DNA of 32,967 bases. Origin: Chloroflexota bacterium. Its GTDB lineage: Bacteria; Chloroflexota; Dehalococcoidia; Lucifugimonadales; UBA3495. This document shows positions 194-32,967 of the stretch, one piece after another. Numbering within the stretch: position 1 is the first letter of the stretch; every line of letters starts with the position of its first letter. The position numbers and the translations under genes were made by a program. The stretch lies in the NCBI GenBank assembly GCA_028875055.1, contig JAPPGG010000022.1:1-32967 (forward strand), read 5' to 3'. A model generated the notes under the pieces. That model made no database searches. It worked only from the letters and a program-made list of their open reading frames with translations, and had not been told where the DNA came from.

Positions 194-1006
194 GTGTTGG
201 CGGCAAAACGGCCCCCCAGTTCTGCTAAACTTGGGAGGGACTTTAGCACAGGGGCGAACACTGACTCAACGAAACCGATTTGCCAGCACCCATCATGTGG
301 GCAACTGGCCAACACTGCCGGCTGGTGCGGTCTGCACTACGGCAGATTCCGTAGGTGCAAGGGTTTGGATGCTCCAACTTATAGCAAACCGTCAAATCCT
401 ATCTGCCAGTACCCGCCGTGCGGCCGCCCCAACGAAAAGGCCGGATGGTGCAATGCCCATTACCTGCGCAAGCGGCGGGGCAAGCCCATGGATACCCCTC
501 CCATCCGCAAAATAGTTGGCAAGAAAACCGGAACCTGCCCCCAGCCTGGATGTGAGAATCAGATAAGAGTCGGTGGATATTGTAGCGTTCACTACCGAAG
601 GCAACGAGAAGGCAGAAACATGGACGCTCCCGTAAGGGCTTCGTCGAAAAGAAAAGGCTTCGATCGCGTGGTGAACCACTTTGGCTACGTGGAAATTCGA
701 AAGCCCGGGCACTACGGCAAAGGGTTGGCCGGTGGGAAGGTGTGGTTTCTTGAACACCGTTACCTTATGGAAATCTATTTGGGGAGGCCATTGTGCGAGG
801 ACGAGAATGTTCACCACGTCAACGGAGATAAAACTGACAATCGTTTGGAAAATCTGGAACTTTGGACGAAACGCCAGCAGCCGTCTGGGCAACGGGTTAC
901 TGACCTGTTGGATTGGGCATACGCCCTGCGTGAACGCTATAAGAATGACCGGAACAAGGTTCTGGGCACCCAGATTGCCATGGCGTTAGAGGATAATGGG
1001 CAATGA
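194..1006 (+). CDS. HNH endonuclease-like protein with three CX4CX9CX2H zinc repeats
   Basis: This 270-aa protein starts at GTG 194. Three evenly spaced zinc-binding repeats with the exact pattern CX4CX9CX2H lie at residues 30-48, 71-89 and 115-133, each followed by a basic stretch and a conserved (G)xMDxP-like tail. The C-terminal half (about 160-228) is an HNH-type domain: GYVEIRKPGH, then WFLEHR, then NVHHVNGDKTDNRLENLEL, with the His pair at 207-208 and the Asn residues at 210 and 220 expected for the beta-beta-alpha-metal fold. HNH proteins of this kind nick or cut DNA and are common in phages and mobile elements; the zinc repeats probably bind DNA. The stop overlaps the start of the next, paralogous gene (ATGA), so the two are translationally coupled. 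The GTG start has only a weak upstream ribosome site. Confidence 0.85.
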   Translation: MLAAKRPPSSAKLGRDFSTGANTDSTKPICQHPSCGQLANTAGWCGLHYGRFRRCKGLDAPTYSKPSNPICQYPPCGRPNEKAGWCNAHYLRKRRGKPMDTPPIRKIVGKKTGTCPQPGCENQIRVGGYCSVHYRRQREGRNMDAPVRASSKRKGFDRVVNHFGYVEIRKPGHYGKGLAGGKVWFLEHRYLMEIYLGRPLCEDENVHHVNGDKTDNRLENLELWTKRQQPSGQRVTDLLDWAYALRERYKNDRNKVLGTQIAMALEDNGQ

Positions 1007-1689
1007 AGAGAGAAGTAAACTGTCAGCATCCATCTTGCGAACTTCCTGCTGCTGCTGCCGGCTGGTGCAATGCGCATTACCAAAGAATGAGACATGGCAA
1101 GGATATGGACACGCCGGTCCAGTACCGGAACAAGGGGAAGACTTGCTCCGTAGATGACTGCGAACGTCCCGCAGTAGCGAAAGGTTTATGCCATTTTCAC
1201 TGGCAGCGAAATCGGAAGGGTATCCCATTAGAGTCACCTATACTGCAACGGAACAAAGGCAAGTTTTGTGTTCAGAACGAATGTAGTAGAACGGCAATAG
1301 CAAAAGGTTTATGCCAACTGCATTGGCGTCGCAAGAGAAAGGGCAATCCTATGGACGCTCAAGGTTATAACGTTGGCCTTACCCGTAAAGTTTTAGACAC
1401 CGGCTATGTCCAGGTCAGACGCCGTGGCCACTTTGGCAAACAACAGGCCCGGGGAGCGGAGTGGTTTCTGGAACATCATTTCGTTCTGGAATGTCATTTA
1501 GGGCGTCCCTTACGCAAAGGTGAAAGCGTACATCACAGGAACGGAAAGAGAGATGACAACCGGCTTGAAAATCTTGAATTGTGGACCAGTTCCCAACCCG
1601 CAGGTCAACGGGTTATTGATTTGCTGAACTGGGCTGACCGCATCATCGCGCAGTACGAACCGGAACTGGAAAAACTGGGCACCGGGTAG
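1003..1689 (+). CDS. Second HNH endonuclease-like protein with three zinc repeats, paralogue of its neighbour
   Basis: This 228-aa protein starts at ATG 1003, inside the stop of the preceding gene (ATGA overlap). It repeats that gene's architecture: CX4CX9CX2H motifs at residues 7-25, 48-66 and 89-107, then an HNH domain with GYVQVRRRGHFG, EWFLEHHF and SVHHRNGKRDDNRLENLEL (His 177-178, Asn 180, Asn 190). Two of its zinc repeats share an RNKGK linker, so repeats have also duplicated within the gene. The shared C-terminus (LW, then QPxGQRV, DLL and WA) continues beyond the HNH motif. It is most likely a tandem duplicate that recognises a different DNA site, or a partner acting as a heterodimer. 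DNA cleavage is inferred from the family. Confidence 0.85.
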   Translation: MKREVNCQHPSCELPAAAAGWCNAHYQRMRHGKDMDTPVQYRNKGKTCSVDDCERPAVAKGLCHFHWQRNRKGIPLESPILQRNKGKFCVQNECSRTAIAKGLCQLHWRRKRKGNPMDAQGYNVGLTRKVLDTGYVQVRRRGHFGKQQARGAEWFLEHHFVLECHLGRPLRKGESVHHRNGKRDDNRLENLELWTSSQPAGQRVIDLLNWADRIIAQYEPELEKLGTG

Positions 1690-2003
1690 TTTTCAGCGGG
1701 AGTCAGAGCCTCTCGTCAGAAGGGAAGGGACTTGTTCGGATCTTCCTTAAGTACGACTTTAAACCAAAACCAAAGTGGAAGCTACATTTCCCGGGAATCA
1801 GGCTTGCCGCAGGTCGCTGTTCCGGTTAGGGGCGATTCGCGAATCGCCCCCACGTCCGACTGCCAGTCAAAATGCACATCCCATAGTGGCTTTAGTTTAG
1901 TTGGTCAACTTCCTCCTATCGATGGCCAAACTCGGCAAACCCGTCGTTTCCACGGAGGCAAGAAGGGCGTCCTGCATTCTTGCTGGCAGTTAGAGTCGCA
2001 GGA
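1690..2003. other. Convergent intergenic region with a REP-like palindrome
   Basis: This 314-base gap separates the plus-strand HNH pair from the minus-strand Ig-like gene. A short plus-strand reading frame (1732-2040) has no recognisable content and runs into the end of the Ig-like gene, so I do not call it. The only structure is the palindrome listed separately at 1829-1850. Confidence 0.6.
1829..1850. repeat. Perfect 22-base palindrome (REP-like element or bidirectional terminator)
   Basis: The half site GGGGCGATTCG is followed directly by its exact reverse complement, with no loop. Lying between two convergent genes, it could end transcription from both sides, but there is no T-run. The GGGGCG...CGCCCC form resembles dispersed repetitive extragenic palindromes found in many bacterial genomes. 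Only one copy is in the window, so the repeat status is inferred. Confidence 0.55.
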
Positions 2004-4355
2004 TCACCAGATGATCTGGTTCCAGCAGTTGCCCAGATAGCAGGAGAAGGCGCGGGGCCTGTTGTTGAGGTATACCTCCACGTCCCCTTTCACCTGAACC
2101 AGATAGGTCTGCCCGTCCCGCAGGTAATCCAGGTTCCCTCCATGCAGTCCGTCATAGAAGGTCCACCGCTTGCTGTCATTGTCGAAGTGCCAGACCACCT
2201 CCAGGTGGGGAGCCAAGTCCGCCAGCGCTTCGCCAACTTCCGTCGCGCCAGCGGTCACCAGGTCCGACTGGGTTACCCTGAAGGCGGCGGCGGCCACCGC
2301 GCCGTCCACCGTGACGGTGACCTGCTGCAGGCCGGTATCGATGCCAGGGACCACGAATCGGGTGCTGAAGACGCCGTGGGCGTCGGTGGCCGTTCCACCC
2401 CCGGGATTCACTTCCTCGCTCTCGAAGAGGACGGAACGTACCAGTGTGAATTCCCGGAAGCCCTCACCGGTGAGGGATACCACGGTCCCCGGCGGCCCGA
2501 TATTAGGCTCCAAGACAACCCTGGCCTGGATCACCCGGTGGTTGGCCTGGAGGGCCATTGTGCCGCCGTCATCGTCAAAGAACTCCACCGTCACAGTGCT
2601 CAGGGAACCCGGGTGGCTCTTGCGGGGCACCTCAATCTGGATGACGAATTGGCCCTGGTCGTCGGTCTCGGCGTGGGCGTGGGTTACCTGGTTGCCCGTC
2701 TCGTAGCTCACACTAATCTTGGTCCCGGAGGAACTGGCGCCGTAGGCCGGAAACCCGGTCCCCCTCACCTCCAGCATGCTGCCGGGCCTGCTCTCTTCCG
2801 GATGCAGCGTTATCTCCCTCTCGGGGATGCGTATCTCGGTTAAGCCGGTGCGGCCAGTGCTGTCGGTCACCAGGAGTTCGTGCAGGCCCGGGGTCAGGGT
2901 GCCTCGGGCGACGGGTACGGTGACCACCTGGGCGAAGGTCCCGGTATCAGTGATCGGTATGCGGCGGTTGCCGTTCCGCCCCATCGGCAATTCAACCGGA
3001 TGTCCTGAAATGCGCATCTCGGCGATGTGCGCCCCTCCCGCCGCGTGGAAACCGACGCCGGTGACCAGGATGCGGCCGTTGGCCGTGACAGTTCCAGGAT
3101 CGACGGTGACTTCGGTACGGCCGCTGGTGATGTCCACGATGGTCCTGGCGGTATATTCCTGGCCGTTGTCGGAGCGCACCAGGGTGACCTCCAACTGCTG
3201 GCGGCCGCTGCGCACTCCCTGGGGAACAGGCAGCTGGAAGTCCAGGTCACCCTCCGGGCCGACCCTCATTGGGTTCAGATCCGCAGGGATCTGACTGACG
3301 GTTACCTCCTCAACCGTTCCCTGGGGGAAGCTGGTCAGGTTGATGCTGATCTGCTCGCCGCGCCCCGGGTCCTGTCGGGCCTTGACCGTGCCCACCAGCT
3401 CCACCAGGTTGTCCAACTTGTAGACCTGGTTGGTTCCGGTACCGACGAGGACGGCGGTGGATCCCTCGCCGTCCCGCGCGTTGACCAGGTTGCAGGTTCG
3501 GGGAGCATTCAAGCACTGGCCGAAGCCGCCGGCAAAGGGTGGAGTGGTTATGAGAAAGGAGCAGTTGGCTTCGCCGCCCGTGTTGACTGCGCTCTGACAG
3601 AATTCTCTCTCGTCGGGGTCCACGGTGCCGTCGGCATCGGCGTCCCGCCAGAAGGTGATCGCCGTCCCGGGCCGGTACCCCCTGGCGGTGGCGCTGACCT
3701 CTTCTCCCCGGCCAATCTCCTGCTTGCTCAAAATGACCTCCCGGTCCACCAGCAGGCCCTCCGTCCCTTCGCCGGGCGCGGACCTGCTGAAGGCGGCGAT
3801 GACCTCCTGGTTGGGGTGGCGTGCAGCCTGCGGGGTCGTCTCCTCGCTGGTAGAAACCCTCCAGGGATAGGCTCCGCCCTCCTGGGGGTTCCTGATGCCT
3901 GCGGGCCCGAGAAGAGTGACCGTGACCCGCGCCCCGGCAGGAATCGGAATGTCTTGGTCGTTTGCCTCCACGTCCGGGATGACCGAGATGGTTGTGGGGG
4001 AATTGCGGGAGCGGCCCTGCTGTACCTCTACCCAACCGGCTTGGCCGGAGCCATAGTCGCTGCCCTTCCGGTAGCGTACCGTTACGCTGTTCCCGCTGAT
4101 GCCGGAGGGCACCCGGATCAGGTAGTCCAGTTCCAGGTATATCTCGCCGGTTAGGACTGGCAGTTCCTCGTTGGCGGTGAACTCCACCGTGTAGGTAGAC
4201 CCCTGACCCGAACTTCGCGATGCGGCGGTAACGGTGGGATTGGCCACGGACTCCGACTGGGCCTCGGCGGACCCATTGCCCAAGGCCACCATAGCCAGGA
4301 TCAGGAGCAGTACGGGGTTCACAAAAAAAGTGGCCCCGGCATTAGACGCCTTCAT
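2004..4355 (-). CDS. Large secreted protein with Ig-like/IPT-type repeats
   Basis: This 783-aa protein starts with a signal peptide (hydrophobic VLLLILAMVALG at about residues 14-26; likely cleavage after AEA at 30-32). The body is a string of beta-rich units with recurring phrases such as ITSGRTEVTVDPGTVTANG, ILVTGVGF, EVRGTGFPAYG and SLTGEGF, typical of IPT/TIG or other Ig-like folds. A possible calcium loop, DADADGTVDPDE, lies at residues 238-249. The C-terminal 70 residues (WHFDNDSKRWTFYDG... to GNCWNQIIW) look like a cell-surface module seen repeatedly in Chloroflexota exported proteins. It is probably an extracellular adhesin or surface-layer-associated protein, with no enzymatic domain visible. 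It stands alone, convergent with the HNH genes. Exact function unknown. Confidence 0.75.
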   Translation of the reverse strand: MKASNAGATFFVNPVLLLILAMVALGNGSAEAQSESVANPTVTAASRSSGQGSTYTVEFTANEELPVLTGEIYLELDYLIRVPSGISGNSVTVRYRKGSDYGSGQAGWVEVQQGRSRNSPTTISVIPDVEANDQDIPIPAGARVTVTLLGPAGIRNPQEGGAYPWRVSTSEETTPQAARHPNQEVIAAFSRSAPGEGTEGLLVDREVILSKQEIGRGEEVSATARGYRPGTAITFWRDADADGTVDPDEREFCQSAVNTGGEANCSFLITTPPFAGGFGQCLNAPRTCNLVNARDGEGSTAVLVGTGTNQVYKLDNLVELVGTVKARQDPGRGEQISINLTSFPQGTVEEVTVSQIPADLNPMRVGPEGDLDFQLPVPQGVRSGRQQLEVTLVRSDNGQEYTARTIVDITSGRTEVTVDPGTVTANGRILVTGVGFHAAGGAHIAEMRISGHPVELPMGRNGNRRIPITDTGTFAQVVTVPVARGTLTPGLHELLVTDSTGRTGLTEIRIPEREITLHPEESRPGSMLEVRGTGFPAYGASSSGTKISVSYETGNQVTHAHAETDDQGQFVIQIEVPRKSHPGSLSTVTVEFFDDDGGTMALQANHRVIQARVVLEPNIGPPGTVVSLTGEGFREFTLVRSVLFESEEVNPGGGTATDAHGVFSTRFVVPGIDTGLQQVTVTVDGAVAAAAFRVTQSDLVTAGATEVGEALADLAPHLEVVWHFDNDSKRWTFYDGLHGGNLDYLRDGQTYLVQVKGDVEVYLNNRPRAFSCYLGNCWNQIIW

Positions 4356-4778
4356 CGATCCCTTGCCTCTTTCGCTAGAGCCTTTCCTTGTGTCGGCACC
4401 TTGCGCTATCCCCTAACTTATCCTGAGCGGCATCTCGAGGATTCGTGGATTCCATGGCAGCCTCCCCCAAGACTGGCAAACCCGGTCCTGCGACCTCGCT
4501 TGTCTGGCGAAATCTTACGATTTTCGGAGCAACATTACGAAGCGATACATACTCACTCCAATAGGCCAACCGCACCACTGCGATTTGCCTTTTCTCCGAT
4601 GTCGCGAAGACGCCAAGATGCTCGAGTAGACTCAAACTGAATACTATTGCGACACCTACGAGTGGACCTGGTGCGGCAGGCCGTCGAGAGGTGGAGAGGG
4701 GCTTTCCCTCCTAATGCACTAACAAACTGAATTTTCCAGTTGCTCACCACACGAAGCTCAAACATTGGCGTTAATTCT
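4356..4778. other. Intergenic region, nothing recognised
   Basis: This 423-base region lies between the Ig-like gene and the STAS gene, both on the minus strand. Short frames exist on both strands, but none has a convincing protein composition. It probably holds the promoter of the Ig-like gene; I cannot point to specific boxes. Confidence 0.4.
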
Positions 4779-5120
4779 TTACATACCGAATTGCTCCAGG
4801 GCAACGAGTTCGGATTCGTAGATCGCCATTATTTTATCGAATCCGCTGATAGCAAAGACCTCCCTGACGGGATATTGCATGGAACAAAGGCATAATCTGG
4901 CGCCCCGCCTTTGCAAATCCTTGGACGCCATCAAAAGTGTGCGCAGGCCTGCACTGCTTATATAGGACACACGGTCAAAGTCTACAATTACCGTCAGGTC
5001 GGTCTTCTCTATTGCTGAGGAAAGAGCATTCTGAAACACGGAAGCATTGCTGCCGTCTATGTGACCCTCGGCAATCAGAGTCACCGTTGCGCCATTGCGC
5101 CGAACTTCAGCAATCACCAT
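4779..5120 (-). CDS. STAS-domain protein, anti-sigma factor antagonist family
   Basis: This 113-aa protein is essentially one STAS domain. Beta strands and the signature VIVDFDRVSYISSAGLRTLL (residues 44-63) match the SpoIIAA/RsbV family, in which a Ser just before the AGL/SGL helix is phosphorylated by an anti-sigma kinase; here Ser55 or Ser56. In that family the unphosphorylated protein binds the anti-sigma factor and frees the sigma factor. The start is supported by AGGAG at 5125-5129 on the minus strand, four bases before the ATG. No kinase, phosphatase or sigma gene is next to it, so its partner is elsewhere or it acts with host proteins. Confidence 0.85.
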   Translation of the reverse strand: MVIAEVRRNGATVTLIAEGHIDGSNASVFQNALSSAIEKTDLTVIVDFDRVSYISSAGLRTLLMASKDLQRRGARLCLCSMQYPVREVFAISGFDKIMAIYESELVALEQFGM

Positions 5121-5548
5121 TTAACTCCTGAGCCAAAGCAAACTACGAAGTACTTCTGGTCAATTGCGGTTGAAATTGCGGGAAAAGTCTAAATTTGTAC
5201 CCAAAATGCCAACAACTGTAGTCGAAGTTACGATGACTATACGGAGCTAAGGGGGATAGGTCAATAGGTGTCCAAACAAAAGGGAGTTACGACGTATGAG
5301 GATACCCCCGGATCCGGGTTGGTGGACTCCCAAGACGCGTCGTGAAGAGGTTCAGCCGGCCCCTGCCCCATTGCGCTGTAGCTGAACCACCTGCCTTCCT
5401 GCCAGTCCGACCGATTCCGTTCCATATGATGCTTCCCAGTTCTTGGATGTGCTTCCTGCGGCAAATCAATTCATTGCAATGAGCCTAATCGCCAATACGC
5501 CGGCACGTTACACCCACTCAAGGTTCGCGTGCCACTTCCGCTGGTCCA
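5121..5548. other. Intergenic region, nothing recognised
   Basis: This 428-base stretch lies between the lipoprotein and STAS genes. Short overlapping frames on the minus strand at 5261-5469 have no start signal or recognisable domain and are not called. No strong hairpin was noticed. Confidence 0.4.
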
Positions 5549-24126: not shown

Positions 24127-26706
24127 TTACAGACGCGGGTCAACCGGCTCGCTTTCCAGTGCCAGCACCGCGAAGGCGCACTCGTGGACTCGAAACAACG
24201 GCTCACGGTCAACGAAACGCTGCAGCCCCTCCAGGCCCAGCGCGAATTCCCGCAGCGCCAGCGACCGCTTGGTGGACAGTCCGCGCCCGCGCAGGCGTTC
24301 CAGGTTGCCGGGCAGGGTGTATTCGGGGCCGTAGATGATGCGCAGGTACTCTCCACCCCGGCACTTCATCCCCGGCTGCACCAGGCCGCACCTGCCGGCG
24401 GCTACGAAGTCGACCGGTTTCACCACCATTCCCTCGCCTCCTGTAGCGGTCAGCTCCTGCCACCAGCGAACGGCGTCCTCCTCCTCTTCGGGCGAGGCGA
24501 GGTCCACTACCCGGTGGCCCGTTGCCCGGAACAGTCCGGGATCGGCCAGTCGCAGGCGGTCCGCCATAGCCAGATGCCAGAGGTGGTCCTTGCCAGAATG
24601 GACGGCTCCCTCGCTGGCCAGCAGATGGAAGGGCGCGAGCCTGATGTCATCCAGGGAGGTCACTGGCCAGCAATACCTAGTGTAGGCGTCACGATAGAGT
24701 TCAGCCAGGCGAAGGCGCTCGTCGACCAACGCCAGGGTATCGCCGGTATCCACTCCACGCTCCGACGCTTCCCTCAACAGAGCTTGCCCCGCCGACAGCC
24801 CGGCACTCGCCGACGCCCCCACCGGCGCGTATTGCTCCAACACTAATTCCTGGGCCTTCATTGACCACGGCATCAGCTCACAGTCCAGCAGCGCCCAGTC
24901 GGTCTCCAAGTCCTCCCAAAGGCCGGATTCGCCGAAGGCTGCACGGACCCGTTCCAGAAACTGCGCCTCGATATTAATGTCCTCAAAGAACCTCCGCCCC
25001 GTCCGGGTGTAGCACGTTCCTGCGCTCTCGCTGGTGATGCCGAACCTTCGCTGGATGGCGTCGGCGCTGCGGCCCACCACGACCACGGCCCGTGACCCCA
25101 TGTGCTTTTCCTCGCAGACGACGCTGGAGACGCCATTGTTGCGGTAGTATGAGAAAACCTCGGCGGGGTGTTCCAGGAGGCCGGGAAGCCTGCTGGTTTC
25201 GCACGGGGAGATGGTGGGGGGCAGGTACACCAACCACCGGGGATCCAGGGCGAACCGGCTCATCACCTCCAGGGCAGCCGCAGCCTGTTCTTCCCTGACG
25301 GTGACGTTGCCCCGGAGCCGGGTCGACACCACCCGTTTTCCCATCACGTCGTCGATGTGCAGCAGATTCGATTGACGGTCATTGGTTGCAACAGTTCTGG
25401 GCTCTTCCTGCGGGCCGCCAACCAGGGGGCGCACCGCCTCGTAGTAGACCTGCGCCGCCGGAACCGACACCAGCTCGTTTTCGGGATAGCGGAGCGCGGT
25501 CAGACTTCCTCCGAAGACGCAGCCGGTATCGACGTTGATGGTCCGGTTCAACCACACGGGCTCCGCCACCGGCGTGTGCCCGTAGACCACCGTGGCCTTG
25601 CCGCGATAGCCGGCGGCCCAGTCGGCGCGCACGGGCAGGCCCCATTCGTCCGTCTCTCCGGTGGTTTCGCCGTACAGGCAGAAGTCCCTGACCCGCGCGG
25701 AGGCCCTCCCCTGGTACTCCTCCTTCATCCCGGCGTGGGCCACCACCAGGTTGCCGCCGTCCAGCACGTAATGGCTGATCAGGCCATCCATGAACTGCGT
25801 GGCCTGCTGTTGGAATTGCGGCGTTTCCAGTTCCAGTTGCTCCAGAGACTCCGCCAGTCCGTGGGAGACCTGGACGTTCCGACCCTTCAGCTTGCGGACC
25901 AGCTTGGACTCGTGGTTGCCGGCGACGCACAGCGCCGTACCATCCGTTACCATCGACATCACCAGCTTCAGCACGTTGGCCACGCCGGGGCCACGGTCCA
26001 CCAGGTCGCCGACGAAGACGGCCCTGCGTCCCTGGGGGTGGAACACCGAAAAGCCATCTTCTGCGCCGTGCTCGGCAGGCGGTTGCGTGACCTGGTATCC
26101 CAATCGCTCCAGCAGCAGGACCAGTTCATCGAAACAGCCGTGCACGTCTCCGATGATGTCGAAGGGACCCGTCTCATGCTGGCGATTGGTCCACGACGGC
26201 ACCCGCTGGATGCTGGCCGCCGCCACATCCTCGGGAGTATCGAGCACGTAGACGTAGCGGAAACCCTCGCGTTTCAGTCCCCGGATGGACCGGCGCAGCT
26301 GCTGCGCCTGCTGGCGGACGACGTGGGAGCCGAAGTTCCGGTCGTCCCGTTCCCGGTTGCGGGCAAGACAAAGGGACTCGGGCATGTTCAACACGATGGC
26401 CGCGGGCAGGCAGTCATGTTCCCGGGCCAGTTCAACCAGCGACCTGCGAGCCTGGGGCTGCACACTGGTGGCGTCAATGACGGTGAGGCGCCCGGCACGC
26501 AGGCGGGTGGATGTGATGTAATTCAGGAGGGCGAAGGCTTCCGGCGTGGCCGCCTGGTCGTTGGGATCGTCGGCCACCATGGCCCGGCAGGCGTCGGAGG
26601 ACACCACCTCGGTAGGCTTGAAATGCCGGGCGGCAAATGTGGACTTTCCCGAGCCGGACGGTCCAACCAGCGCGACCAGGCACAGTTCGGGGATTTCCAG
26701 TTTCAT
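24127..26706 (-). CDS. pnkp: Pnkp: RNA repair polynucleotide kinase, phosphatase and ligase
   Basis: This 859-aa protein starts at ATG 26706, which overlaps the hen1 stop by four bases (ATGA); the 44 codons open upstream lie within hen1. It has the three bacterial Pnkp domains. The kinase domain has P-loop GPSGSGKST at 15-23. The metallophosphatase domain has GDVHG 186-190, GDLVDRG 233-239, GNHE 263-266, AHAG 323-326 and GHTP 376-379. The ligase domain has the nucleotidyl-Lys motif KHMG with Lys534, and later EGMVVKP and QPGMKCRG. The enzyme trims the 2',3'-cyclic phosphate, phosphorylates the 5' end and, with Hen1, seals cut RNA such as tRNA broken by ribotoxins. All motifs look intact. Confidence 0.97.
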   Translation of the reverse strand: MKLEIPELCLVALVGPSGSGKSTFAARHFKPTEVVSSDACRAMVADDPNDQAATPEAFALLNYITSTRLRAGRLTVIDATSVQPQARRSLVELAREHDCLPAAIVLNMPESLCLARNRERDDRNFGSHVVRQQAQQLRRSIRGLKREGFRYVYVLDTPEDVAAASIQRVPSWTNRQHETGPFDIIGDVHGCFDELVLLLERLGYQVTQPPAEHGAEDGFSVFHPQGRRAVFVGDLVDRGPGVANVLKLVMSMVTDGTALCVAGNHESKLVRKLKGRNVQVSHGLAESLEQLELETPQFQQQATQFMDGLISHYVLDGGNLVVAHAGMKEEYQGRASARVRDFCLYGETTGETDEWGLPVRADWAAGYRGKATVVYGHTPVAEPVWLNRTINVDTGCVFGGSLTALRYPENELVSVPAAQVYYEAVRPLVGGPQEEPRTVATNDRQSNLLHIDDVMGKRVVSTRLRGNVTVREEQAAAALEVMSRFALDPRWLVYLPPTISPCETSRLPGLLEHPAEVFSYYRNNGVSSVVCEEKHMGSRAVVVVGRSADAIQRRFGITSESAGTCYTRTGRRFFEDINIEAQFLERVRAAFGESGLWEDLETDWALLDCELMPWSMKAQELVLEQYAPVGASASAGLSAGQALLREASERGVDTGDTLALVDERLRLAELYRDAYTRYCWPVTSLDDIRLAPFHLLASEGAVHSGKDHLWHLAMADRLRLADPGLFRATGHRVVDLASPEEEEDAVRWWQELTATGGEGMVVKPVDFVAAGRCGLVQPGMKCRGGEYLRIIYGPEYTLPGNLERLRGRGLSTKRSLALREFALGLEGLQRFVDREPLFRVHECAFAVLALESEPVDPRL

Positions 26707-28103
26707 TGTGTGAAGACCCCCATCTGGGTCGGCGCGCCGTATTCGGGATGTTCGGAGCCGATGCCGTGAAAACGAACGTCGTAAGCCCGGCGGTCGGCAA
26801 CCGCCTGGGCCCAATCCTGGAATTGCTCCCTTGTCCACTCGAAGCGGTGATCCCGGTGCCTGAACTCGCCGGGCGGCAGGTTTTCGAACAGGCAGTTGTA
26901 CTCGGAGTTGGGCGTGGTGATGACCACGGCGCCGGGTTGCGCCGCTCCAAAAACAGTGGATTCGAACGCTTCCAGCCGGTCCGGGTCGATGTGCTCGATT
27001 ACCTCCATTGCCACGGCGGCGTCGAATCCGGCCAAACGTTGATCCTGGTAGGTGAGGGACCCCTGGAGCAGCGCGATCCTTTCTCGCTGGGCGGCGGGCA
27101 GGTTGTCCAGACGCAGGCGGGCGTGGGCAGTCTCCAGGGCGCGGTGGGAAACGTCCACGCCGGTGATGGCGCGAAAGGCGGGTTCCTTGAGCAGCTCTCG
27201 CAACAGGTTCCCCTCGCCGCAGCCCAGGTCCAGCACGCGCGTCGCGCCCACCTCCCGCAGGGCGGTGAGCACCGCCTGCATCCGCTGCTCCCCCAACCGT
27301 AGCGGGGTTTCGAGACGCTCCTCATCGTGTTGCCCCCGCTCGGCGGCGACGTCGGGGGCGACCTGGCCGTCATCCGACAGCCGGTCCAACGCCTGTAGCA
27401 CCAGGCTGCGCTGCCGCTTCAGATATCGAGTGGAGATCAACGCCTGATGGGGATGATCGCTCAGCCAGCCCGCGCCGAACCGCAGCAGCTTGTCCACCTC
27501 GTCGTCGCCCACCCAGTAGTGCTTGGCGTCATCCAGCACGGGAAGCAGGACGTAGAGGTGGGCCAGCAGGTCCCGCAGCCTCACCACTCCCTTGAGTCCC
27601 ACACCAAAGCAGGGACTGGCTCCCCACTCGGGGAAGCCCGCATCCAGCGGGTGCTCTCGGATTTCAACGGAGTAGCCCAACGGCTCGAACAACTTGTCAA
27701 TGAGTTCCGGTCCCTCCCGGGACGGCAGGGTGGGCAGTTGGGCTTCCAATGGGATTGGCTGTTGCGCCAGCTCGGGCCGTTCCCTGCTGTTGCCGGCCAG
27801 TGCGCTGTTGAACACCGAAGCAATCGCCACGCTGAGGTGCGACGAAGCTACGTAGGGACGGTCGTTCACGTACTGCTGGAGCCAGCCCGCCGAGTTGTAC
27901 GCGCCGGTCTTAGGACGCACCAGGCCCACCGGGTCGATCTCCAGCAGGAGGGCGGCGGTGCAGCGGTCCACGTCAGCCACCGGATAGAAGACGTCCGCCC
28001 TTCCGAAGGGAAGCGGGAACGACTGGAATCGCCCGGGGTTCTTGTGCAGCAGGTATCCCAGGTCCGTGGCGGGGCGATATGTGGTGGAGATGGTGAGCAG
28101 CAT
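26703..28103 (-). CDS. hen1: Hen1: 3'-terminal RNA ribose 2'-O-methyltransferase, partner of Pnkp
   Basis: From ATG 28103 (MLLTISTTYRPATDLGYLLHKNP) this is 466 aa, matching the family's start; an ATG 15 codons upstream is less likely. The N-terminal half is the bacterial Hen1 domain that contacts and activates Pnkp ligase. The C-terminal half is the methyltransferase: VLDLGCGEGNLL at about 290-301 binds SAM, EVIEHI holds the metal ligands Glu367, Glu370 and His371, and HRDHRFEW (416-423) supplies the fourth, His419. It marks the repaired end with a 2'-O-methyl group before sealing, which prevents a second cut at the same site. The gene overlaps pnkp by four bases. No separate RNA-cutting toxin lies within this operon. 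Confidence 0.96.
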   Translation of the reverse strand: MLLTISTTYRPATDLGYLLHKNPGRFQSFPLPFGRADVFYPVADVDRCTAALLLEIDPVGLVRPKTGAYNSAGWLQQYVNDRPYVASSHLSVAIASVFNSALAGNSRERPELAQQPIPLEAQLPTLPSREGPELIDKLFEPLGYSVEIREHPLDAGFPEWGASPCFGVGLKGVVRLRDLLAHLYVLLPVLDDAKHYWVGDDEVDKLLRFGAGWLSDHPHQALISTRYLKRQRSLVLQALDRLSDDGQVAPDVAAERGQHDEERLETPLRLGEQRMQAVLTALREVGATRVLDLGCGEGNLLRELLKEPAFRAITGVDVSHRALETAHARLRLDNLPAAQRERIALLQGSLTYQDQRLAGFDAAVAMEVIEHIDPDRLEAFESTVFGAAQPGAVVITTPNSEYNCLFENLPPGEFRHRDHRFEWTREQFQDWAQAVADRRAYDVRFHGIGSEHPEYGAPTQMGVFTQ

Positions 28104-28359
28104 ACTCACAATGGTACGACACCCCCGACCGGCGGACAAGGCTAGCAACCAGTTACGCGTAAGGGAGATGGAGGTGGGGAAAAGGCCGACGCTCTTCGTA
28201 ATGATGCTCCCTCCAATCTACCGGCGAGCAATTTGGGAAATCCGGCGTGGAAAATGACAGTTGGGGGTTGCGCCCTGGGTATCCGATTCGATACCATAAG
28301 TGGCACACGGAAGCCGCACAGCAGCAAACCGGAATGCCTAGACCACCGGAGCCGTGATC
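28104..28359. other. Divergent intergenic region between hen1 and the broken antitoxin gene
   Basis: About 255 bases. A toxin gene would be expected directly upstream of this antitoxin type, but no frame here resembles one. A possible plus-strand promoter is TTGCGC followed 17 bases later by ATACCAT; this is a weak call. Confidence 0.35.
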
Positions 28360-29636: not shown

Positions 29637-29883
29637 GAGTTGATGGGCATCCTGGGCCGGATGGCCCGCGCCCACCGGATGCGCAGGTTAGCCCAGCAGA
29701 CCGGCCTGGGCGAGAAGAGTCTCTACAAGTCCATGCGGGCCGGAGCCAGGCCCGAGGTGGGCACTGTAATACGCGTGCTGGGCGCCCTGGGCTACCGGCT
29801 GCAGGTAATTCCTGTCGAAGATGAAGGCAACGAACGGTAGCTAACTGCCGCAGACGGCATGGACATGCCGATAATTCATTACC

Positions 29884-29889
29884 AGGAGG
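29884..29889 (+). promoter_or_regulatory. Ribosome-binding site of the recombinase gene
   Basis: A perfect AGGAGG lies eight bases before ATG 29898. It selects this start over the in-frame ATG at 29859, which encodes 13 extra residues with no place in the family. Confidence 0.85.
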
Positions 29890-29897
29890 CAACCCCC

Positions 29898-31829
29898 ATG
29901 AACCAGATAGCAGACCTCACCCCGGCGGCCCTCTACGCCCGGGTCTCCAGTGACCGCCAGGACGTGGACCTCTCCGTAGCCGCCCAGATGCGGGCCCTGC
30001 GGGACTACGCCGAGCGCAACGGCTACTCCGTAGCCCGCGAGTACGTGGACGAGGCCGAGAGCGGCAGAATCGCTGACCGGCCCCAGTTCAGGAAGATGCT
30101 GGACGAGGCCAGCAAGCCGGAGGCGCCTTTCAGCGAAATTCTTGTCTGGAAGTTTTCGAGATTCACCCGGAAGCGGGAGCACGCGGTGGCCTTCAAGTCC
30201 ATGCTCCGGCGCAAGGGAGTCCGCGTCGTCTCCATCACCGAACACGCCGACGACTCCCCCACCGGCAAGCTGATGGAGGCCATCATCGAGTCCGTGGACG
30301 AATTTTACTCAGAAAATCTTGCCGAAGAAGTTCGGCGGGGGATGCGGGAGGCAGCCTCTCGGGGCTTCTGGGTCGCCAGCCGCGTGCCCTACGGCTACCG
30401 CAAGCTGATGGTCCAGGACGGAGCGAAGAAGCGCCCCACCCTGGAGCCCAACCCGGACACCTCCCCGGTGGTCAAGCGCATCTTCGATATGGCAGAGTCG
30501 GGTAGGGGCATCCTGGACATCACCCGCACCCTGAACGACGAGGGCATCGCCAACCCCACCGGCAGGCCCTGGTCCAAGAACGGCGTCCACATCATCCTCC
30601 GAAACGAAGCCTACACCGGAACACTTCTCTGGGGCGGGGGCGCCAGGGACAAGGGAGAGCCGGTGCGGGTGGAGAAGGCTTTTCCCGGCATCGTTTCCAA
30701 GACCCAGTTCCGCAAGGTGAACAAGCAGATGAGCTCCCGCGCCCCCAGGAAGGCCCATCCCCGCCGGGTGGGAAGCTCCTATCTTCTCAGCGGGCTGGCC
30801 AAGTGCCGCGCCTGCCAGCGGGCCATGTCGGGCCAGGACTCCAAGGGCGGGCAGTTCGCCTACTACGTCTGCCAGTCCCTGATGAAGCGGGGCAGCGGGG
30901 CCTGCGACTGCCCCAGGCTGAACGCCCGCAGGTTCGAGGAGATGGTGGTCGGCAGGATTCGGGACAACATCCTCACCGAGTCCAACATCAGGGAACTGGT
31001 CAAGCTGGTGGACGAGGAGATGGACGGCATAGCCCGGGAGCAGCGCCAGCGGCTGGAGACCGCCGAGGCGGAACTGGCCGACGTGAAGCGGAGGCTGGAG
31101 CGGCTCTACAACCTGGCGGAGACCACCGACCTGGACATCGAGGACTTCAAGCCCCGCATCCGGGACCACCGGGAGCGTCAGGAGAAACTTGTGGCGACGG
31201 CGGAGGAGGCCAGGGTGCTGCTATCCCAGCGCCGGGTGGTGCTGGACGACGTGGAAACGATTACCGCCTACTGCGAGGACCTGAGCCGTTACCTGAACGA
31301 GAGCGAGCTTACCGAGCGACGAGCTTTCATCGAGTCCTTCGTCAGGGAGATCGTGGTGCAGCCCGGGGCCGCCGTGGTGCGCTACACAATCCCGATGCCG
31401 GATAATAGTCCGATAGGGGGAAAGGACGCCGAGGAACTGGCTTTGCACTCCCCGGTACTGTCTACCGTCAAGTCTGGTGGGCCGGACTGGACAAAATCAA
31501 GAACCGAGGCCGATTCCGACGTCACCCCGTCCTGGGGCATGGGGATGGTGTACGTCAGAACCGCCTCGTCCTCCACGATCTCGATGCCCTGCACGAAGTT
31601 GCGGATCAGGGCCTTCCGCTCCGGGAAAGTGCCGTCCTGGAAGAGTGCGCGGAAGTCCGCCACGTACCCCTTGATCTCCTTCGACGTGGGCAGCTCCGCC
31701 CGCCGCTGCTCCAACTGGAACTCGGCTTCCTCCCGCGCCGCCACAAGCTGGTCCTGGCGGCTCTTCAGGGACAGGATGCGGGGCGACAGGACCTCGATGG
31801 GCAACTGCTGGGTCTCCAGGGCCTGGTAG
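29898..31829 (+). CDS. Large serine recombinase (integrase) of the element; C-terminus altered by integration
   Basis: From ATG 29898 the frame gives 643 aa. The resolvase domain is at residues 8-150 with ALYARVSSDRQ (catalytic Ser17 region) and LVWKFSRFTRKREHAV. The recombinase domain follows (VPYGYRKL, RILNDEGI-type helices, HIILRNEAYTGTLLWGG), then the zinc ribbon (CRACQRAMSGQ, YYVCQ, ACDC) and a long coiled coil (RQRLETAEAELADVKRRLER). The family motif AVVRYTIPMP marks the true end region. The att core lies at codons 527-528 (GGT GGG); the 115 residues beyond are encoded by sequence outside the element, antisense to the resident recombinase, and are not family-like. Across the rejoined attP the protein would be about 544 aa. 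It catalyses integration and, with a directionality factor not seen here, excision. Confidence 0.93.
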   Translation: MNQIADLTPAALYARVSSDRQDVDLSVAAQMRALRDYAERNGYSVAREYVDEAESGRIADRPQFRKMLDEASKPEAPFSEILVWKFSRFTRKREHAVAFKSMLRRKGVRVVSITEHADDSPTGKLMEAIIESVDEFYSENLAEEVRRGMREAASRGFWVASRVPYGYRKLMVQDGAKKRPTLEPNPDTSPVVKRIFDMAESGRGILDITRTLNDEGIANPTGRPWSKNGVHIILRNEAYTGTLLWGGGARDKGEPVRVEKAFPGIVSKTQFRKVNKQMSSRAPRKAHPRRVGSSYLLSGLAKCRACQRAMSGQDSKGGQFAYYVCQSLMKRGSGACDCPRLNARRFEEMVVGRIRDNILTESNIRELVKLVDEEMDGIAREQRQRLETAEAELADVKRRLERLYNLAETTDLDIEDFKPRIRDHRERQEKLVATAEEARVLLSQRRVVLDDVETITAYCEDLSRYLNESELTERRAFIESFVREIVVQPGAAVVRYTIPMPDNSPIGGKDAEELALHSPVLSTVKSGGPDWTKSRTEADSDVTPSWGMGMVYVRTASSSTISMPCTKLRIRAFRSGKVPSWKSARKSATYPLISFDVGSSARRCSNWNSASSRAATSWSWRLFRDRMRGDRTSMGNCWVSRAW

Positions 31830-32967
31830 AGGTTCTCCAACCGGGTCTCCACGTCGGACAGCTCGCTGTTGATGGCGGTCAGCCTGCCGTTGACCTCGCC
31901 GGCCAAAGCATCAATCTCCTCGGCCACCAGGGTCACCAGCTCGGTGATGGTCTCCTCGGTGAGAATCCGCTCCCTGACCTTCTCGATCACCAGGTCCTCG
32001 ACTTTCGTGGCGTTCAGGTAGCGGGCGGTGCAGGCTCCGGCCCCTTCCCTGAACAGGCTGGAGCAGACGTAGTAGGCGAACTGGCCGCTCTTGGCGCCCT
32101 GGGCCGAGTAACTCCTGCCGCACACCCCGCAGCGCAGGAGGCCGCTCAGCAGGTACTGGCTGCCCACCCGCGCGGGCCGCTGCACCGTGGGCGCCCGCTG
32201 GTGAAGCCCCTGCTGCACCTGCTCGAACAGCTCCCTGGAAACCAGGGCGGGCCAGGCGTTCTCCACCCTTACCGGCTCCCCCGCCTTCTCGTCCTTGCTC
32301 TTGACTCCCCAGACGGCGGTGCCGGTGTAGGCTTCGTTGGTCAGCAGGTAGTGGATGACGTTCTTCTGCCAGCGTTTGCCCTTATGGGTGATGCCCCGCC
32401 CGTTCAGCTCCTTGCAGATTTCCGCGAGCCCGTTGCCCCGCTTGGAACTCTCGAATATCTCCTTGACTATCGGAGACGCCACCGGGTCCACCTCCAGGGT
32501 GGGACGCTCCTTCACCCCATCGCTGACCTTGACGCGGGTGTAGCCGAAGGGGGCCTTGGAACCCAGGAAGAACCCACGGGAAGCGGCCTCCCGCATTCCC
32601 CGCGTCACTTCTTGCCCAAGATTCTCGCTGTAGTATTCGTCCACGCTCTCGATGATGCCTTCCAGCAGCCGGCCGGTGGCGTTGTCCTCGGCCTGCTCGG
32701 TGATGGAGACCACGCGGATGCCCTTGCGCCGCAACTGGGCCTTGAAGGCCACGGCGTGCTCGCGCTTCCTGGTGAACCTGCTGAATTTCCAGACCAGAAT
32801 GACCTGGAAAGGGGCCTTTGGCCTGCCGCCCTCGTCGATCATCTTGCGGAACTGGGGCCGGTCGGCGATCCGGCCGCTCTCGGCCTCGTCCACGTACTCG
32901 CGGGCCACGGAATAGCCGTTGTTCTTGGCGTAGTCTCTCAAGGCCCGAAGCTGGGCCGCCACCGAGA
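31382..32967 (-). CDS. Resident large serine recombinase, the element's target gene (5' end beyond the window)
   Basis: The frame is open to the right edge; the first residues, including the catalytic Ser region, are cut off (it begins SVAAQLRALRDYA, equal to about residue 26 of the other recombinase). About 527 residues are visible: resolvase domain with LVWKFSRFTRKREHAVAFK, recombinase domain with HYLLTNEAYTGTAVWG, zinc ribbon CGVCGRSYSAQ, YYVCS and ACTARYL, coiled coil and the VLTYTIPMPQDG end. It is strongly similar to the element's own recombinase. Its last 33 codons (31480 down to 31382) now come from inside the element. Across the rebuilt attB it would instead read SGPPSWTKSRTFHIRFTLG and run on beyond the window. 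It probably belongs to a neighbouring, older element. Confidence 0.9.
   Translation of the reverse strand, partial: SVAAQLRALRDYAKNNGYSVAREYVDEAESGRIADRPQFRKMIDEGGRPKAPFQVILVWKFSRFTRKREHAVAFKAQLRRKGIRVVSITEQAEDNATGRLLEGIIESVDEYYSENLGQEVTRGMREAASRGFFLGSKAPFGYTRVKVSDGVKERPTLEVDPVASPIVKEIFESSKRGNGLAEICKELNGRGITHKGKRWQKNVIHYLLTNEAYTGTAVWGVKSKDEKAGEPVRVENAWPALVSRELFEQVQQGLHQRAPTVQRPARVGSQYLLSGLLRCGVCGRSYSAQGAKSGQFAYYVCSSLFREGAGACTARYLNATKVEDLVIEKVRERILTEETITELVTLVAEEIDALAGEVNGRLTAINSELSDVETRLENLYQALETQQLPIEVLSPRILSLKSRQDQLVAAREEAEFQLEQRRAELPTSKEIKGYVADFRALFQDGTFPERKALIRNFVQGIEIVEDEAVLTYTIPMPQDGVTSESASVLDFVQSGPPDLTVDSTGECKASSSASFPPIGLLSGIGIV
31454..31505. other. attR, right attachment site of the serine-recombinase element
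   Basis: The site consists of inner arm 31454-31474, core with TGGTGGGCC at 31475-31483, and outer arm 31487-31505. The inner arm is the exact reverse complement of 57-77 and the outer arm of 26-44. Joined with attL it rebuilds an attP with 24-base arms (one mismatch) and an attB with 24-base arms (three mismatches), both around TGGG and both centred on the same GG. It lies inside the overlapping 3' ends of two convergent recombinase genes, which is where the crossover occurs. Confidence 0.9.

Follow-up and report, generated by a model that had tools for sequence, protein, structure and literature searches.

A tandem pair of zinc-repeat HNH genes in a Chloroflexota genome, probably free-standing homing endonuclease genes with relatives in phages

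The stretch of DNA analysed here (the window, 32,967 nucleotides) is the entire contig C31 of a 3.75-Mb genome of 75 contigs. Close to its left end, two overlapping paralogous genes each encode three zinc repeats and an HNH domain. What would such a pair do, and how did it come to this place? The initial annotation had suggested that the repeats might be read like modules for DNA recognition and that the two proteins might form a paired nicking enzyme or a selfish homing-type device. Judged by their own features and by those of their relatives, the two genes, termed A and B, are probably a tandem pair of free-standing HNH homing endonuclease genes.

Gene pair A-B and its domains

The features of the locus are as follows.
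26-77, + strand: att-like repeat with left half GGTTCTTGATTTTRTCCAG and an inverted match in the window
194-1006, + strand: ORF A, GTG start, 270 aa, three CX4CX9CX2H repeats and an HNH_3 domain
281-337, 404-460 and 536-592, + strand: zinc repeats 1-3 of A, CX4CX9CX2H motif
752-865, + strand: HNH core of A (EHRY...VHHVNG...DNRLENLELW), HNH_3 match
1003-1689, + strand: ORF B, ATG start, 228 aa, three CX4CX9CX2H repeats and an HNH_3 domain
1021-1077, 1144-1200 and 1267-1323, + strand: zinc repeats 1-3 of B, CX4CX9CX2H motif, AlphaFold2 models
1471-1584, + strand: HNH core of B (EHHF...VHHRNG...DNRLENLELW), HNH_3 match, I-HmuI match over model residues 123-198
1690-1995, no strand: stretch after B without counterpart on the sister contig G003:C199
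1996-2003, no strand: right edge; 97% identity to the sister contig G003:C199 starts at 1996
2004-4355, - strand: TIG-domain gene by ORF call, 783 aa; the right edge lies eight bases outside it

ORF calls, motif counts and HNH_3 scores confirmed that A and B are tandem overlapping paralogues, each with three zinc repeats and an HNH domain. The HNH_3 (PF13392) scores of 38.9 bits for A and 35.3 bits for B both exceed the Pfam cut-off of 24.8; A and B are 44-46% identical to each other and are the sole HNH_3 matches in their own genome. The ATG of B overlaps the stop codon of A in the sequence ATGA, which suggests translational coupling of the two genes. The start of A is uncertain, its frame being open from 131 and similarity starting near 278. 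With a GC content of 54% (A) and 51% (B), compared to 64% for the TIG gene and 61% for the remainder, the pair lies in lower-GC and probably foreign DNA, with an integration-type site on one side and the 3' end of a chromosomal gene on the other. A search of 1-2100 for Rfam intron families up to E 1 returned none at threshold and one chance match, mir-4488, with 26 of 71 gathering bits. A and B are free-standing in that both are whole ORFs and no intron family was found in 1-2100.

The invariant repeat spacing that had been noted earlier holds within the CX4CX9CX2H motif for all repeats of A and B, and the distance from repeat to repeat is 41 and 41 residues in B and 41 and 44 in A. When each protein was shuffled 20,000 times by residue, two or more motifs never arose and a single motif was seen in 7 and 8 shuffles.

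A confident AlphaFold2 model of B (59 alignment rows; mean pLDDT 86.7, pTM 0.51) shows an HNH fold preceded by three small modules, each with a short helix at its end. The best solved fold for this predicted model is I-HmuI (PDB 1u3e; Z 6.4, 3.3 Å over 69 residues), a match that covers the HNH domain only and, with Z < 8, is moderate by the fold tool's own note; I-PpoI comes next with 4.5. Foldseek also ranked I-HmuI first (E 0.034, probability 0.99), with no structure at E ≤0.001, and phmmer of B against PDB chains gave no match up to E 10. A and B thus share the HNH_3 core of the I-HmuI-type HNH homing endonucleases (HNH_3, PF13392), the closest solved fold found, but differ from I-HmuI by three zinc modules ahead of the HNH domain and by the absence of an intron family from 1-2100. 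I-HmuI is a nicking enzyme, and we know of no comparable zinc array in it. Zinc and HNH residues are conserved across 59 aligned proteins, a result that is partly circular, the loci having been found by HNH patterns and the rows picked by motif. A loss of HNH metal-binding residues in close homologues, named at the outset as evidence against the idea, is not what is seen in these relatives, which were partly found or chosen by their HNH motif.

The zinc array modelled alone reached a pLDDT of 85.1. One of its modules resembles zinc finger 7 of A20 (PDB 3vuy; 1.1 Å over 31 residues, at a low Z of 4.2), and B scores 26.6 bits against Zf_WRKY19 (PF24906), just under the cut-off of 27; A has no PF24906 match. 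A20 fingers have four Cys ligands. The A20-type finger and Zf_WRKY19 are similar small zinc modules, from which the modules described here differ by a His as last ligand and from which no function is transferable. Foldseek of the array placed WT1 and other C2H2 arrays on top, weakly (best E 0.01, probability 0.47, rmsd 12.9 Å). At the level of models, these weak matches to A20 ZF7 and C2H2 arrays carry no information on function. Several PHROGs HNH families match the zinc repeats.

Distribution of the family and history of the pair

By sequence, A and B are members of a family that has one to five repeats, is patchily distributed and occurs largely in phages. With B as the query, tblastn detected a relative in 88 of 50,697 phage records, some of them duplicates; an earlier scan of viral contigs with B alone had found nothing. 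In assembled collections, 44 bacterial loci were obtained, together with the best 80 of 305 viral ones. Among bacteria, counted with the window's own genome, relatives occur in 3 of 99 genomes, in 7 of 400 genomes of the phylum and, using A at E 1e-12, in 5 of 393 genomes of the class, where some match the HNH part only. The neighbours of the relatives are varied and include head, tail, capsid, terminase, helicase, primase and lysis genes; a major head protein family lies upstream in at least 10 of the 77 loci scanned. In a separate observation, one relative (locus L004, 1039-3214, genome G036) has an HNH_3 domain with a single CX4CX10CX2H motif and is followed directly by an ORF that, by eye, resembles a DNA methyltransferase with an HNH-like C-terminus.

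A search for proteins with one to several such repeats joined to HNH, which had been recommended, was successful. Counted with 22 following residues, the 88 distinct among 95 motif ORFs (from scans whose viral loci are the best 80 of 305) carry one repeat in 21 cases, two in 34, three in 24, four in 8 and five in 1, the five-repeat ORF being one gene present twice (L009 and L032). The family consensus is C-x4-C-x9-C-x2-H-Y-x-R; Arg occupies motif position 22 in 153 of the 194 distinct repeats. In the short helix, positions 17, 18 and 21 have an entropy of 3.3-3.7 bits, compared to 3.5-3.9 bits in the linker. This variability and the range of one to five repeats would fit DNA recognition and, just as well, plain surface exposure. 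If the arrays do read DNA, they would represent a compact modular binder.

That the two genes form a unit is supported by the same pair in another genus. In G026, a genome of the same family, A' and B' lie side by side at an unrelated genomic place, and no DNA similarity to A-B extends beyond the genes. The HNH parts are 73% identical between A and A' and 68% between B and B', compared to 55-58% between A-type and B-type. Protein-level constraint is indicated by pS 0.80 and pN 0.27 for A/A' and by pS 0.82 and pN 0.22 for B/B', values at which synonymous sites are saturated. A tree of 89 rows and 117 columns, in which 40 of 85 inner branches are open and the bootstrap had not settled, supports A with A' (100/99), B with B' (99/92) and all four together (96/90). 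Since A pairs with A' and B with B', the duplication, as read from the tree, is older than the split, and the two genes have moved or persisted together as a unit. The G026 pair is broken: A' has its frame interrupted within zinc repeat 1, and in B' the HNH part is out of frame with the zinc part. As its sequence stands, this frameshifted copy gives no demonstration of two working genes there. Two motif-complete genes per locus were present only at the window, L049 and L095 among the loci scanned, a test that the broken G026 pair misses. The two genes of L049 are unresolved as sisters and those of L095 fall within one group of five.

Insertion polymorphism and replaced gene ends in phage relatives

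A comparison with nearest kin covered nine phage genes. Seven of them carry the exact CX4CX9CX2H motif, and those of UBSmoodge and Quaran19 have a longer middle spacing. For six of the nine, four with the exact motif, the kin have no HNH gene and the genes on either side of the place directly adjoin each other; the occupied/empty pairs are Kabocha/Hanem, UBSmoodge/ScarletRaider, Quaran19/Spelly, GiJojo/pSt2308, Weasels2/Grayson and Trax/Rabbitrun. In Belfort, the kin of SparkleGoddess, another small gene is found at the place, Magritte has no kin in the collection, and Jacko is the ninth. A common, nameless phage architecture of one to five zinc modules plus HNH would thereby be tied to a homing life style.

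Kabocha, Hanem and ChisanaKitsune (L179, L183 and L221) are closely related phages of Gordonia, with one and the same laboratory host strain on record. Between Kabocha and Hanem, the terminase genes have 15 codon differences (18 bases) over 494 codons; each is synonymous and falls within the last 19 codons, directly ahead of the HNH gene. On the 3' side of the Kabocha HNH gene, a 56-base copy is identical to the Hanem terminase end. The simplest account would be an insertion with a replaced terminase end, the displaced original now lying behind the HNH gene. ChisanaKitsune, which has no HNH gene at its terminase, follows Kabocha at the first six of these 15 codons and Hanem at the remaining nine. 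This mosaic end is most simply accounted for as the scar of an HNH gene loss, by recombination between the two ends, and it is possible that it is an ancestral mosaic instead. Selection for immunity is not demanded by the Kabocha end, because a donor phage with other codons explains it too; at the terminase C-terminus of ScarletRaider, the protein is identical and 8 synonymous codons differ from Hanem. Occupied, empty and apparently scarred alleles of one terminase gene in close phages amount to natural experiments, and the series opens target recognition, resistance by synonymous change and the loss of selfish genes to direct testing.

Two further loci display duplicated ends. In L096, a ten-codon end ahead of the HNH gene has a counterpart after it with the same ten residues and seven codons changed; which of the two is the original we can only infer, as L096 has no known empty relative. 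L011, from the window's class, is an HNH_3 relative without CX4CX9CX2H repeats whose duplicated gene end is nearly identical (33 of 38 residues), which shows, as far as its sequence goes, duplication and not recoding. A stop-anchored scan of gene ends at 94 loci (95 candidates including 14 hand-added, one dropped for short flanks) returned three clear cases, L011 with 182, Kabocha with 82 and L096 with 53, compared to 29 for the best of 470 cross-locus controls; the duplicated-end layout is therefore rare among the loci examined. When 90 items were scanned without an anchor, L011 (189), L031 (100) and Kabocha (82) exceeded the best of 360 controls (66) and L096 (53) did not; the L031 score arises from the A'-B' repeats themselves. 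The gene-end scan of the G026 pair was unconvincing, with 53 against 50 for the best of 30 shuffles.

Divergence next to the HNH gene is also raised, and not only at synonymous positions, at the 3' end of the GiJojo primase gene and at 5' ends in Trax, Weasels2 and SparkleGoddess. In Quaran19, the upstream gene has two synonymously changed codons, both at its very end, and the thioredoxin downstream is largely different. In UBSmoodge, by one pairwise comparison, the upstream end is unchanged and four codons are changed at the start of the downstream LysM gene, a 5'-end version that a start-anchored scan missed. Raised divergence at gene ends would fit co-conversion.

Some of these traits are already known: free-standing HNH genes from actinophages (PMC3706429) and the end-replacing layout from fungal mitochondria (PMC3630166). 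In Cluster J mycobacteriophages, HNH genes stand alone, there is a precise insertion where a close relative has none, one place is used by HNH genes that are unrelated, and Omega has a 35-bp loss next to lysin A (PMC3706429). They resemble the A-B family in being free-standing, in insertion polymorphism and in a new 3' end of the neighbour gene; section 25 of that paper makes no mention of CX4CX9CX2H repeats, of tandem pairs or of a synonymous gene end with a displaced original. In fungal mitochondria, mobile endonuclease ORFs bring a foreign C-terminal coding end that is fused in phase, the original being left behind (PMC3630166). This is the layout of Kabocha and L096, with the difference that phage HNH_3 genes and one repeat-less bacterial HNH_3 gene are concerned here instead of fungal organelles; the layout thus occurs in phages too, and no precedent there was found in the open-licence papers searched. 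The free-standing endonucleases of T4 (PMC2988022) and the HNH-3 genes of ICP1 (PMC10448857) are likewise intergenic selfish nucleases, often near essential genes and with an accessory zinc finger; the ICP1 genes described have HNH N-terminally and the zinc finger C-terminally, whereas here an array of several modules is N-terminal. The ShiLan element is a homing gene of the HNH type concealed within a phage methylase (PMC11855218). It also combines HNH with zinc fingers, and its authors compare it with I-HmuI, but its HNH is central between two CXX(X)C-pair fingers and it lies inside a gene, out of frame. As far as searches of open-licence literature reach, the zinc-repeat family, its conserved tandem pair and the terminase allele series are new.

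A more specific idea, which we regard as speculative and on balance unlikely, takes the zinc-repeat HNH genes for phage and bacterial 'cut and restore' elements. The nuclease gene would arrive at the end of a conserved gene and bring its own version of that end, different in synonymous codons; the new copy would keep the protein intact and render the site uncuttable, and later loss by recombination between the two ends would leave a protecting scar. A-B would be the version with two nucleases, the zinc arrays reading two neighbouring target segments.

The flanks of A-B and the competing explanations

Identity to the sister genome G003 amounts to 97% across 1996-5357 (3,365 columns). In place of A-B, the sister contig carries a different HNH gene with PF01844, PF14279 and Endonuclease_7 matches (L156, 3523-4038), so that, by these matches, both species carry an HNH gene, of a different family in each, behind the same chromosomal gene. 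An empty site for the insertion of A-B was not found, the G003 place being occupied by the PF01844-type gene and the left flank ending with the contig. The end of the TIG gene differs from the sister by 3 synonymous and 6 other changes, all in the last 34 codons of the last 98-codon row. An internal block of about 100 codons, in an otherwise nearly identical gene, is more diverged than the end and looks like gene conversion; given this block, the gene end speaks neither for nor against co-conversion beside B. Around A-B, no gene-end duplication was found (score 37, compared to up to 48 in 30 shuffles). The suggestion of a selfish homing device has good support from the relatives, with their I-HmuI-like fold, polymorphism and replaced ends; at A-B itself, neither an empty site nor an end duplication was found. 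Further observations on this side are a perfect palindrome, GGGGCGATTCGCGAATCGCCCC, at about 1827-1856 inside a repeat present in several genomes of the genus, a repeat of about 50 bases on the far side of the G003 HNH gene that is present at three places in the window's genome, and the many paralogues of the TIG-domain protein family.

On the left, the att-like repeat ends about 115 bp ahead of the GTG of A. It matches 31454-31505, inverted and 85% alike, near the 3' end of a serine-recombinase gene (31382-32962). The genome holds 15 copies of its half-site at up to one mismatch, compared to 0 for the reversed control; some lie at 3' ends of serine-recombinase genes and three directly abut tRNA genes (Val-gac, Val-tac and Lys-ttt). 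With the same half-site abutting the 3' ends of Val, Val and Lys tRNA genes, an att site seems to be part of the recombinase gene itself. The placement of A and B 'just inside attL' was therefore correct in that an att-like repeat adjoins A, but the contig begins at base 1 and the element cannot be delimited. At their 3' ends, large serine-recombinase genes carry GGTTCTTGATTTTRTCCAG and, after it, a GGCCCACCA-like core, which together make up a family of integration-type sites; five related genomes contain 33 half-site matches among those listed.

Could A and B be passengers or parts of a serine-recombinase element that ends at 26-77, with no homing of their own here? The nearby site, the half-site count against its control and the three tRNA genes speak for this reading, which we consider rather unlikely, since none of the 12 half-sites listed for G026 lies on C147, the contig of A'-B', DNA similarity between the pairs stops at the genes, and no other att copy in the own genome is accompanied by an HNH_3 gene (the genome has two HNH_3 genes only). 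The two genes might also be an obligate pair of heterodimeric nickases, each acting on one strand and jointly making a double-strand break, which would be compatible with homing. Such an arrangement would be in keeping with the HNH core and the full set of zinc ligands in each protein, with the ATGA overlap of the genes, with the occurrence of the pair in two genera and with the nicking by I-HmuI; a paper title also describes I-PfoP3I, an HNH enzyme from a phage intron, as nicking. Against obligate pairing, relatives are mostly single genes, two complete ones occurring at three of the loci scanned, and we hold it to be improbable.

A role in defence or restriction is very unlikely. It is brought up by the contents of the remaining contig, which holds a type I restriction system, an Mrr-type enzyme, a Pnkp/Hen1 RNA-repair pair, a Replic_Relax protein, a transposase and two serine recombinases, and by weak PADLOC matches to ZorE of Zorya (E 0.004-0.007); however, these matches span only 18-19 residues of the HNH core, and many relatives are phage genes beside capsid, terminase and tail genes. 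A packaging nuclease that assists terminase, as in the HK97 case discussed in PMC10448857, is suggested by the five-repeat member directly ahead of a terminase large subunit gene (L032, identical to L009) and by Kabocha gene 17 directly behind a terminase gene. The varied neighbours, the close phages that lack the gene and the absence of phage structural or packaging genes among the 20 window ORFs scanned with Pfam make this explanation extremely improbable.

The working of A-B is best read as that of homing endonucleases, judged from their architecture and from the behaviour of their relatives. The N-terminal array of three zinc-stabilised modules would provide a probable grip on DNA, and the I-HmuI-like HNH domain would cut or nick it. 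DNA without the gene, once cut, would be repaired from a gene-bearing copy, and the gene would spread in this way to intergenic places and gene ends. The pair would stem from an old duplication, its two overlapping genes being retained together as a unit and probably co-translated; homing by A and B, and any division of labour between them, we infer.

Elsewhere in the window, the Pnkp and Hen1 RNA-repair genes are adjacent (24127-28148), on the contig shared with the type I restriction system and the Mrr-type enzyme. At its right end (29859-32967; L029 and L030), two serine-recombinase ORFs are convergent and overlapping, and a 390-base stretch at their junction is identical at two other places in the genome, which suggests that it is part of a repeated mobile unit.
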